Origin: Treponemataceae bacterium
GTDB taxonomy: Bacteria > Spirochaetota > Spirochaetia > Treponematales > Treponemataceae
Length of the DNA: 64,000 bases
Direction: 5' to 3'
Assembly: GCA_024402495.1 (NCBI GenBank)
Contig: JAKSTR010000005.1
Location: forward strand, 1-64,000
The position numbers and the translations under genes are program-made. The notes under the pieces are model-generated. The model saw only the letters and a program-made list of their open reading frames with translations, was not told the origin of the DNA and made no database searches. This document shows positions 46,352 through 61,380 of this stretch, one piece after another (position 1 is the first letter of the stretch; every line of letters starts with the position of its first letter).

Positions 46352-47062
46352 GTGTTAAACCGAAAAAATATTTTTTTTGCCATAATTTTTTTGTATGTTT
46401 CTGGCGCGTTGATTTTGCCGCCAATCTTCATCCGGCAAGATTCGTCCGCCGTTCAGCCGGAAAATTTTAACGAATTTTTATATCAGTTTCCCAATTTTAG
46501 CCTGACGGCAATTTTGTATTTTATTTTCTGGTGCACGATTTTTTGCGTAATTTGCGTTTTTTATAATCGTAGCCTTTCAAATAATCTGCAAAAAACAAAG
46601 CCCAGTATTAAAACTTGCATTGCAAAAAGTTTTATCACTTTTTCTGCAATTGTGGCGTTTTGGACGGTAGTTTCGCTTTTGTTTAGCAGCAAATTGCAGG
46701 CAGCACCAAGCAAAACCAACGCCCGGTGGATTTTGTTTTTTGCAGGCGTTTTTTGCGCCGCCGCATTTGAAGAATGCCTTTACCGCTTGTATTTGCCTGA
46801 AAGTTTTCAATTTTTAATTGAAAACACAAAATTGAAAAGCAAAAACGCCAGATTTTATAAAATTTTCCAAATTGCCGCAGAAATTTTATGCGTGCTTTTA
46901 TTTGCCCTTGCCCACAGATATTTGGGAATTCTTGCCGTATTAAACGCCCTTTTTGCCGGTTCAGTTTTGCGGCGGCTGGCAAAACAAACCAATATTATTT
47001 GCAGCTGGCTTGTCCATTCACTTTACAACTGCCTTATTTTTGCATTTGCAATTTTTCAATAA
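46352..47062 (+). CDS. CPBP intramembrane metalloprotease
   Basis: 236 residues with about six transmembrane helices, starting at GTG 46352 with a poor ribosome site. The CPBP (Abi/CAAX) motifs are EECLYR (E140, E141, R145), FALAH (H188) and HSLYN (H222, N226). Members cleave prenylated or other membrane proteins, and some confer immunity to bacteriocins. It is next to the BrnTA cassette, which is probably coincidence. Confidence 0.85.
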   Translation: MLNRKNIFFAIIFLYVSGALILPPIFIRQDSSAVQPENFNEFLYQFPNFSLTAILYFIFWCTIFCVICVFYNRSLSNNLQKTKPSIKTCIAKSFITFSAIVAFWTVVSLLFSSKLQAAPSKTNARWILFFAGVFCAAAFEECLYRLYLPESFQFLIENTKLKSKNARFYKIFQIAAEILCVLLFALAHRYLGILAVLNALFAGSVLRRLAKQTNIICSWLVHSLYNCLIFAFAIFQ

Positions 47063-47063
47063 C

Positions 47064-47082
47064 AAGCCCGCAATTTTAAATT
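47064..47082 (+). repeat. 19-bp direct repeat, left copy
   Basis: AAGCCCGCAATTTTAAATT; an identical copy is at 47684-47702. The two copies bracket the BrnTA cassette. Confidence 0.9.
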
Positions 47083-47100
47083 TTATATAAAGAACTGTAA

Positions 47101-47133
47101 AGGAAGCCCTTCACATTCCCTTAAACCGGGCTC
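47101..47133 (-). terminator. Possible terminator after brnA
   Basis: On the minus strand GGAGCCC and GGGCTTCC can pair around a long loop, followed by TTTACAG. The T run is weak. Confidence 0.4.
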
Positions 47134-47346
47134 CTATTTTGTAAAAGCAACTTCCATACGTTTATTTTCTTTTACACATTCAAGCAGATAATAATTAATA
47201 ATATTCTGATACGGCATACCTGTTTCTTCTGCCATTTGTTTAAAATATTCTATTACTTTATCATCAAGCCTAATTGTTATCTGTTTTTTTAATCTGTCTG
47301 CATATGGGTTTTTAATTCCATTTGAAAAGTCGTAATGGTCTCTCAT
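47134..47346 (-). CDS. brnA: BrnA-type antitoxin
   Basis: 70 residues with the ribbon-helix-helix pattern KKQITIRLDDKVIEYFKQMAEE and MPYQNIINYYLLE, as in BrnA/CopG antitoxins. MRDHYDFS at the start is typical. It binds and neutralises BrnT and represses their operon. GGAGG lies before its ATG, which directly follows the brnT stop. Confidence 0.9.
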   Translation of the reverse strand: MRDHYDFSNGIKNPYADRLKKQITIRLDDKVIEYFKQMAEETGMPYQNIINYYLLECVKENKRMEVAFTK

Positions 47347-47634
47347 CTAAATACCTCCATACTGGTTTGCTTCTTGCAAATCAGCTTTTCTTGCTGAAAT
47401 AATTCTAATTCTGTCATTTTCTCTATAACAATGGCAGACCAACAATATATGCAATTCAGAACTTAAACCAAGCATAACAAATCTATCTTCATCTAAACTT
47501 GAATGATCAGGGTCTGAAATCAATATGGCGTTTTCATCATAAAACACAGTTTTAGCTTCTTCAAAAGTTACTTTATGTTTGGCATAGTTTAGCTTTGCCT
47601 TTACTGGATCCCATTCAAAAATAATCTCATCCAT
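47347..47634 (-). CDS. brnT: BrnT-type ribonuclease toxin
   Basis: 95 residues from ATG 47634; the 12 extra upstream residues belong to the promoter. FEWDPVKAKLNYAKHKVTFEEA and the C-terminal RIIISARKA match BrnT (RelE-like fold), which cleaves RNA and stops growth when free. The toxin precedes the antitoxin, the usual BrnTA order. The start has no Shine-Dalgarno sequence; the -10 box lies 6 bases upstream. Confidence 0.9.
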   Translation of the reverse strand: MDEIIFEWDPVKAKLNYAKHKVTFEEAKTVFYDENAILISDPDHSSLDEDRFVMLGLSSELHILLVCHCYRENDRIRIISARKADLQEANQYGGI

Positions 47635-47640
47635 AATTAC

Positions 47641-47670
47641 AATATAATTAACACATAACTTATTTGTCAA
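47641..47670 (-). promoter_or_regulatory. brnTA promoter, leaderless configuration
   Basis: TTGACA (47670-47665), 18-base spacer and TATATT (47646-47641), then six bases to the brnT ATG at 47634. BrnA is expected to bind here. Confidence 0.65.
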
Positions 47671-47683
47671 ATAAATACCATCT

Positions 47684-47702
47684 AAGCCCGCAATTTTAAA
47701 TT
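47684..47702 (+). repeat. 19-bp direct repeat, right copy
   Basis: Identical to 47064-47082. The 601 bases between the copies hold only brnT, brnA and their control signals. Confidence 0.9.
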
Positions 47703-47726
47703 AGCCTGAATGTCGAGTTTTAAAGT

Positions 47727-47820
47727 TTTGTCATTCCGAACTCGTTTCGGAATCTGTTTTTGATAACAAATCGAATACTGTGCACAGCCGCCGAAGGCTA
47801 GTAAATTCCGCATGACAAAT
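47727..47820. repeat. REP-like palindromic element
   Basis: Terminal inverted TTTGTCAT and ATGACAAA, with an internal hairpin ATTCCGAA/TTCGGAAT. A related smaller element is at 48713-48746. Probably a dispersed non-coding repeat; the rest of this 333-base gap holds only the flgJ terminator. Confidence 0.55.
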
Positions 47821-47914
47821 ACTGTGCGCGCCCGCCCGGTAAAAAAACGTGCAATATTGCAAAATATGCCGGCAATAAAAAAATGCGGGCAACCAGCAAA
47901 AATTCATTCTGGTA

Positions 47915-48035: not shown

Positions 48036-48629
48036 TCAGCCCATCAAATCAAGGTAAATCTGGTCAGCAAGACCAAAACCGGCAGCTTTTGTAATGCTTC
48101 CGGCAAGTTCATCGTAAAGCATATCTTCGTAAGTATCCCGGGCGTAAGAATTGTTTTCGCCAAAAAGATTTGTTTTGCTTACGGTGTTGCGCATGGAAGA
48201 AAGCATAATTTTTACAAAATACGATTCAAGTTCAAGTGCCTGTTCGTACAATTTGCTGGTTTTATCAATTTTTTTATCAGCGCTTTTGCCGTGTGCACCT
48301 TTCGCGTTAGCAGCAGCCCCGCTTGGCAGCGCCGCTTTGTCGCTTTCGCTGGTAAAGGCGTTTGCCATGCCGGTTGTATAATCGCCGGTCAGGCGGCTGC
48401 TTTGTGCAATCTGCGAAGTTGACAATGTGCTTAAACCCGGATTAGTTTTTTCAGCTTTTGCAGCCTGGGCTTCGCTGTTAATACTGTCAATCAAAGCCTG
48501 AAACTTTGAAGTTTCTTCCTGATCGCGGGCTACGTTACCGGCAGAAAAACCTGCAACGCCGCCGGTTGGTATGTTTACGCCTTTTGAAAAGCCGGAATAT
48601 GCATTTACCATGTCTAAAGTCGAAGCCAT
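48036..48629 (-). CDS. flgJ: FlgJ-like rod-binding protein
   Basis: 197 residues from ATG 48629, behind GAGGG. The C-terminal 75 residues (LYEQALELESYFVKIMLSSMR, split from YEDMLYDELAGSITKAAGFGLADQIY) match the rod-binding domain of FlgJ. The muramidase domain of enterobacterial FlgJ is absent, as in spirochaetes. The N-terminal half is low-complexity (Ala/Ser/Lys). It caps rod assembly in the periplasm. It follows flgG after a REP-like element. Confidence 0.87.
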   Translation of the reverse strand: MASTLDMVNAYSGFSKGVNIPTGGVAGFSAGNVARDQEETSKFQALIDSINSEAQAAKAEKTNPGLSTLSTSQIAQSSRLTGDYTTGMANAFTSESDKAALPSGAAANAKGAHGKSADKKIDKTSKLYEQALELESYFVKIMLSSMRNTVSKTNLFGENNSYARDTYEDMLYDELAGSITKAAGFGLADQIYLDLMG

Positions 48630-48712
48630 ATTTTCCCTCGTGGGTTTAAGGTTGGCTTCTGCAAAAATCTGCAAAAGCCATATTTAGCAGTAAGAACTGA
48701 AAGTATAATTCA

Positions 48713-59602: not shown

Positions 59603-60012
59603 ACTTTCTCTCAAGACTTGGAATATTTTGCCACAAGGCTTAAGAGATTTTCTCTTAAGCCTTAGGATATTTTGCCGCAAGGCTTAAGGTTCTTTCTCTC
59701 AAACTTTAGGATATTTTGCCCCAAGGCTTAAGATATTTTCTCTTAAACCTTAAGATATTTTGCCTCAAGGCTTAAGATACTTTCTCTTAAGGCTTAAGAT
59801 ATTTTATCTCAAGCTTTGAAATATTTTGCCGCAAGCCTTAAGGTACTTTCTCTCAAGCCTTGGGATATTTTACCTCAAGGCTTAAGATACTTTCTCTCAA
59901 GACTTAGGATATTTTGCCGCAAGGCTTGGGATATTTTATCTCAAGCCTTAGGATATTTTGCCGCAAGGCTTGGGATATTTTTCCTCAAGCTTAAGATACT
60001 TTCTATTAAGCT
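59603..60012. repeat. Tandem array of 22-bp repeats
   Basis: About 18 degenerate units with a strict 22-base spacing; starts include 59604, 59648, 59692, 59736, 59780, 59802, 59824, 59846, 59868, 59890, 59912, 59934, 59956. Two unit types alternate in part, TTTCTCTCAAGCCTTAGGATA-like and TTTTGCCGCAAGGCTTAAGAT-like, whose cores AAGCCTT and AAGGCTT are complementary; for example 59654-59663 pairs perfectly with 59679-59688. No coding function is visible. Confidence 0.9.
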
Positions 60013-60132: not shown

Positions 60133-61380
60133 CTATTTTTTGCTTTTTACAAAGGCATCTTTATAGCCGTCTTTTCTGAACTTGTTCAAAACTGCGGTAT
60201 ATTCATCTGCCGAAAGCGAACCAATCAAAAGTTCATAGGCATTAGATGTAATTTCCGAAGCCTTAATGCTGATTGGGTATTTTTTCTCGTATTTTTTAAC
60301 AACTGCACTCAAGTTGCTCATGTCTCTAAATACGCCAAGTTGAACATAATATTTGCCGCTTTCGTACTGGTTAATCAAATACTGCGGATACGGCATTGCA
60401 GAATAATTGTGAACAGGACCTGTAACTGCCGGTGCCTGAGCAGCAGTTTTTTCCGGCTGAACATTTGCAGCAGGCTGCTGGGTGTTTGTCTTGGTTTCTG
60501 CCGGAACAGACACTTCATTCTGGCTTGGGTACTGGGCAATTGTAACATTAACCTGCGGCGGCAACTGCTGTGCAACCTGTTCCTGCGGAATGTAAGCGCT
60601 TGCACAAGGATTTGGACAGCGGCAGTATGCACCGCAAGTACAGTAACCTGAACAAACCGGATTCTGGCAAGTGCTGTAGCTTGGTGCTGGCGGCAATTTA
60701 GAATAATCGTAAACAGATTCTGCTTTTTTAACAGGAACTTCTGCCGGAACAGGTGCTTCTAAAGCCGGTGTATTCGGTACTTCGGTTTTTGCAACTTCAA
60801 CCGGCGCATTATTTTCCGGCTGAACATTTACCGGAACCGGATTTGCAGCAGCAACAGGAACATCCTTATACTGTTCTTCAACCTGCGGAACATTTGCAGC
60901 CGGTACATTTTCAGCTGCGTAAACCGGCGCTACATAATCAGCAGGTTTGCGTTCTTCGGTATAAACCAAATCATTTTTAAGGGCAGCACCAGCATTTGTA
61001 TCCGGGTCTGCAACAGTAGCTTTTACACCGTCTGTAAGCGGTTTTTCTACAACATAATCGTTTTTGCGGCTAATGCGCACAACAGTATCATAACCGCCGG
61101 CAATTTCCAAATCGTCAGCAACAGAAGGCGACAAAAGAATTAAAACGCCAGCCAAATCTGTTGAACCGGTAATTACAACATTTGAAGTTTTTCCGTTGAC
61201 GGTATTATAAACTTCTACAATTTCACCCTTGGCAAAAACCCTGCTCTGCGCATAACGACCGCCAGTAGGAAAACTGTCGGCTGTTCCAACTGCGGCACGA
61301 CCTTCCCATGCAACAGACGACGCTGCTGAAAGCATGGCAACAGCAGCAATCAATAATAATCCACTACAAAAACGTTTCAT
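60133..61380 (-). CDS. RlpA-like SPOR-domain envelope protein
   Basis: 415 residues with a signal peptide (1-25, ending VAW). Residues 25-110 form a degenerate double-psi barrel like RlpA (FPTGGRYAQSRVFAKGEIVEV; VYNTVNGKTSNVVITG); then a long Pro/Ala/Val-rich spacer, an unusual cluster of seven cysteines (CQNPVCSGYCTCGAYCRC plus CPNPC overlap), and a C-terminal SPOR domain (about 340-412, YYVQLGVFRDMSNLSAVVKK) that binds denuded peptidoglycan at division sites. The catalytic Asp of RlpA transglycosylases is not evident. GAGAGG precedes the ATG. Confidence 0.83.
   Translation of the reverse strand: MKRFCSGLLLIAAVAMLSAASSVAWEGRAAVGTADSFPTGGRYAQSRVFAKGEIVEVYNTVNGKTSNVVITGSTDLAGVLILLSPSVADDLEIAGGYDTVVRISRKNDYVVEKPLTDGVKATVADPDTNAGAALKNDLVYTEERKPADYVAPVYAAENVPAANVPQVEEQYKDVPVAAANPVPVNVQPENNAPVEVAKTEVPNTPALEAPVPAEVPVKKAESVYDYSKLPPAPSYSTCQNPVCSGYCTCGAYCRCPNPCASAYIPQEQVAQQLPPQVNVTIAQYPSQNEVSVPAETKTNTQQPAANVQPEKTAAQAPAVTGPVHNYSAMPYPQYLINQYESGKYYVQLGVFRDMSNLSAVVKKYEKKYPISIKASEITSNAYELLIGSLSADEYTAVLNKFRKDGYKDAFVKSKK

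Follow-up and report, generated by a model that had tools for sequence, protein, structure and literature searches.

A brnTA toxin-antitoxin pair framed by a locus-specific 19-bp direct repeat in a Treponemataceae genome

Several described systems resemble a small toxin-antitoxin locus that we analyzed in a Treponemataceae bacterium. Insertion sequences and transposons leave perfect short direct repeats at both edges of the inserted DNA, and these target-site duplications are usually 2–14 bp long. Chromosomal integrons carrying toxin-antitoxin cassettes have been published for Treponema (PMC3607928), BrnT-BrnA cassettes have been found in oral Treponema (PMC6557892), and brnTA is carried by pdif modules in Acinetobacter (PMC7530245). 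The locus described here lies within a stretch of 64,000 nucleotides (positions 1 to 64,000 of contig JAKSTR010000005.1, assembly GCA_024402495.1; hereafter the window), in which an initial annotation had pointed to a brnTA cassette between two identical 19-mers. The genes themselves show no difference from a BrnT/BrnA type II toxin-antitoxin system, given that both Pfam families match above cut-off, the toxin gene precedes the antitoxin gene and the pair has its own promoter. Like those of insertion sequences and transposons, the framing repeat is perfect and short, but there are no terminal inverted repeats, no transposase, and 19 bp exceeds the usual length of their duplications. With the Treponema integron cassettes the locus shares the same gene pair, a promoter of its own and approximately 80% DNA identity to attC-flanked copies (PMC3607928; PMC6557892), whereas attC sites, a cassette array and the integrase IntI are undetected in the genome and a 19-bp direct repeat frames the pair. 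The pdif modules are likewise small toxin-antitoxin modules framed by short repeats (PMC7530245); however, pdif sites are 28 bp long, with XerC/XerD arms and in inverted orientation, while the window repeats are direct and devoid of arms. What is slightly unusual is the setting, not the gene pair, which is of a known kind.

Both genes lie on the minus strand. The RNase toxin gene brnT (47347..47670) matches PF04365 (E 3.2e-26, 91.9 bits against a cut-off of 34.5), and its product also matches PDB 7vd7. Directly downstream, and starting right at the brnT stop, follows brnA (47134..47346), which encodes a 70-aa ribbon-helix-helix antitoxin matching PF14384 (E 2.9e-7, 31.2 bits against a cut-off of 26.1). 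The real brnT start is probably the internal ATG at 47634, because the DNA upstream of this ATG holds a promoter conserved in relatives, a sigma-70-like TTGACA-18-TATATT (47670–47641, minus strand, score 11/12). An AT-rich palindrome (ATAATTATATTATAATTAT in relatives) overlies the -10 element and is likely to be an operator. The region 3' of brnA (47083..47133, minus strand) holds a terminator-like hairpin at 47115–47096 and no attC site. On the same side, a strong nested minus-strand RNA hairpin at 47060–47140 (z -3.4), in which part of the left 19-mer pairs with the brnA end, may act as a terminator. Nothing else notable is encoded between the repeats, so the earlier description of a segment containing only brnT, brnA, their promoter and a possible terminator holds. 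The GC content of the cassette is 30.6% versus 39.2% for the window, with 7% of the window's 601-bp stretches being equally AT-rich. brnT is present as a single copy in the genome, and the cassette DNA is unrepeated, unlike the dispersed repeat to its right. No inverted-repeat pair was found at the two cassette ends.

The 19-mer AAGCCCGCAATTTTAAATT occurs exactly, as had been noted, at both edges of a 601-bp segment (47083–47683), with the left copy at 47064..47082 (plus strand) beginning 1 bp past the stop codon of the upstream CPBP gene, and the right copy at 47684..47702 (plus strand) abutting a dispersed intergenic repeat. The 2.97-Mb assembly contains no further exact copy; the next-best matches, two in number, carry 2 mismatches and are sited elsewhere. 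A collection covering 84,980 species yielded the 19-mer elsewhere only in 7 unrelated Bacteroidota contigs, and viral contigs contained none. The genome, species-collection and viral-contig searches rule out that the 19-mer is a dispersed element, a possibility raised with the initial annotation. Nor is it part of the neighboring dispersed repeat (GTCATTCCGAACTCG; GTCATTCCGAACTCGTTTCGGAATCTG...), since the other copies of that element start at approximately 47698–47703 and lack the 19-mer. The dispersed repeat itself occupies 47698–47822 of the window and has 59 matches in the genome. The 19-mer is locus-specific and is most simply read as a target duplication.

Could the repeat simply be a coincidence, two AT-rich intergenic stretches that match by chance on either side of the pair? 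When the window was simulated 30 times with an order-2 Markov model, the longest exact direct repeat at 150–3000 bp spacing measured 14–18 bp and never 19 bp. A survey of 1.1 Mb of the genome itself, sampled as stretches, contained only 8 unique-pair direct repeats of at least 19 bp at 300–3000 bp spacing, and apart from the pair described here they lay mostly around ordinary or coding DNA. That repeats of this length arise unrelated to insertions speaks for coincidence. The two 19-mers, however, sit tightly at both edges of an insertion that is supported independently (see below), and post hoc arithmetic from this background of 8 unique repeats per 1.1 Mb puts the chance that such a pair frames a given gene pair of about 540 bp, within about 100 bp on each side, at about 3e-5. 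We therefore regard a coincidental match as quite improbable.

The insertion itself becomes apparent from the neighboring genes, both of them core genes. On the left lies a gene for a CPBP/Rce1-like protease (46352..47062, plus strand, PF02517) and on the right a gene for a flgJ-like rod-binding protein (48036..48674, minus strand, PF10135). In the window, the gap between them measures approximately 970 bp and consists of the brnTA cassette, then the dispersed repeat, then a further intergenic part. In four congeners the same two genes nearly abut (within a few tens of bp) and brnTA is absent, which is why an insertion of brnTA in the window's lineage is well supported by this comparison. The view of the locus as a compact insertion without a transposase of its own gains from these abutting genes and from the foreign character of the pair. 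The congener junctions showed no convincing 19-mer, but CPBP is only about 35–40% identical there, and because the junctions are so diverged this lack carries little weight. A scan of the genome contigs with the CPBP protein as query returned no match.

With respect to the origin of the pair, BrnT is 87% identical within the genus versus the 35–40% of CPBP, and BrnT is 90% identical to the copy of a genome from another genus (G178), while FlgG of the same genome reaches only 79%. BrnT relatives of 75–90% identity are spread over several genera of the family, and FlgG identity to the same BrnT-bearing genomes outside the genus is 73–79%. The gene tree mixes genera and places the window copy among copies of genera g4, g5 and g20, which shows that the pair was acquired horizontally. 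DNA homology to other copies ends at brnTA and its promoter (47134–47675).

Across the family, brnTA is commonly an integron gene cassette, and the lineage to which the window copy belongs circulates there largely in this form: about 18 of the 29 brnTA relatives have an attC site or an attC half directly at the brnA end, and many of their loci hold additional attC sites, in agreement with the published Treponema integrons and the BrnT-BrnA cassettes of oral Treponema. The window copy is no longer such a cassette. A covariance model built from 19 attC sites found none near the locus and none at E<=1 in the genome (an assembly approximately 97% complete, in 202 contigs), whereas 6 of the 7 congeners contain attC; likewise, no IntI (TIGR02249) scored above the cut-off in the genome, while two congeners, G005 and G007, have a full IntI above it. 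The left end was also considered as a degenerate attC and rejected, since it had no model match and its DNA fold reached a z of only -1.8 versus -7.2 for attC; as RNA, by contrast, the minus strand of this end folds significantly, in keeping with a terminator. An occurrence of GTTATGTG in the brnT promoter was judged a coincidental resemblance to an attC R' box, since relatives, once aligned, show free variation in the promoter spacer. The copies that cluster with the window copy in the gene tree mainly lack attC as well, and the window copy may for this reason descend from a copy that was already outside an array.

Given these relatives, an integron integrase could have put a circular brnTA cassette into a secondary attG-type site, with the attC halves later decayed or deleted and the 19-bp repeat arising later or independently. 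Insertion of cassettes at attG sites has been described (Loot et al. 2024, cited in PMC11023631). Close brnTA copies are integron cassettes, congeners have the integrase and attC sites described above, the TAACA at the left edge is the reverse complement of TGTTA, the invariant R' box core of attC sites, and a solo brnTA copy in G005 keeps the attC R' half GTTATGTG beside brnA. Against this stand the absence of attC from locus and genome, the lack of an IntI above cut-off, the weak left-end DNA fold and the fact that strand exchange by IntI is not known to create a 19-bp target duplication. Taken together, we consider integrase-mediated entry unlikely. Of the earlier suggestion that an enzyme supplied elsewhere could mobilize the cassette, what stands is that relatives offer a concrete candidate, the integron integrase; no attC is left at the window locus.

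The reading that we favor, with about an even chance of being correct, is that of an ectopic, horizontally acquired type II toxin-antitoxin pair, placed by illegitimate repair that duplicated its target and kept thereafter by addiction. A fragment with brnTA and its own promoter would have entered the CPBP-flgJ junction at a staggered or microhomology-primed break beside the CPBP 3' end, and the repair would have duplicated about 19 bp of target, with one copy on each side. By analogy with the known family, BrnT would cleave RNA and BrnA would block BrnT and repress the promoter, and this addictive action would have retained the pair. brnTA has no mobility function of its own, and the 19-bp repeats would allow at most a rare precise deletion by slippage. 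That the 19-bp repeat is a target duplication is plausible but unproven; we favor it because the left 19-mer starts directly after a gene end, just as the repeat around the solo copy in G005, a member of the window's genus, is built on a gene 3' end. The latter copy (L123, G005:C9:122000-125481) is framed by 52-bp direct repeats of 84% identity; the left repeat corresponds to the conserved 3' end of an upstream methyltransferase-like gene, a sequence that three congeners (G007, G001 and G006) have as a single copy. Two cases are too few to establish a mechanism, and nothing points to a dedicated enzyme.

Several points count against the favored reading. Perfect duplications of 19 bp are rarely made by illegitimate repair. 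Repeat formation is not general, given that most other solo brnTA copies (L033, L037, L049, L056, L058 and L061) show no direct repeat at their flanks beyond what chance would give. Moreover, the nearest sampled brnTA copies reach only about 80–82% DNA identity, which leaves donor and route out of view.

The position of the left 19-mer just past the CPBP stop also accords with an attL/attR arrangement, in which the 19-mers would be the cores left by a tyrosine-recombinase element that aims at gene 3' ends, that has lost all but its brnTA cargo and whose recombinase acts in trans. The G005 copy likewise duplicates a gene 3' end, and XerC/D-like integrase genes are present in the genome. Yet inverted arms are missing from the 19-mer, which differs from the G005 repeat and has no integrase gene beside it; apart from the 7 unrelated Bacteroidota contigs, the genome, species-collection and viral-contig searches found it nowhere else. 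We consider such an element improbable to a considerable degree. The original proposal that the cassette could move by recombination between the repeats finds no support: AAGCCCGCAATTTTAAATT lies beside no other small cassette in the window genome, in no viral contig and at none of the other close brnTA copies, and the mobility reading of the repeat is unproven.

Besides the G005 copy, one other solo copy has flanking repeats, in genus g15. Its direct repeat (L055) was rejected as a second example, as it is a promoter-like repeat common to neighboring modules. At one g15 locus, brnTA and other toxin-antitoxin-like modules share a promoter-like repeat at their boundaries (L118 2109-2882, L119 3686-4440, L122 2810-3560), and different genomes hold different modules, as if swapped through promoters. 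The window pair might likewise have been swapped in by homologous recombination, as in a toxin-antitoxin island, if short repeats were already present around other DNA at the site. We find this very unlikely, since elsewhere in the window's genus the junction holds no other insert, the 19-mer does not resemble a promoter, and its 19 bp fall short of the usual minimum for homologous recombination.

A broader generalization would be that integron-type toxin-antitoxin cassettes of this genus leave the array and insert at gene 3' ends without all or most of attC, duplicating 19–52 bp of target. We hold such an undescribed escape route to be doubtful, with a low probability. The locus matters as a case in which a toxin-antitoxin pair persists apart from the integron system, its carrier in relatives; integrase and attC are both undetected in the genome. 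Should the direct repeats in the window and in G005 prove to be target duplications, they would point to a route by which genes from cassettes become permanent residents of chromosomes.

Two further repeat structures were observed. In the window's genome, a 20-bp direct repeat, perfect and with its copies 1501 bp apart, surrounds a gene for a CPBP-like membrane protein together with a small ORF (L083 38-1558, G000:C113), possibly a second repeat-framed insert. In the window itself, approximately 17 copies of a 22-bp unit (ATATTTTGCCTCAAGGCTTAAG, 71% matches) form an array at 59623–60002, shortly past the 3' end of a gene encoding 415 aa (60133–61380, minus strand).
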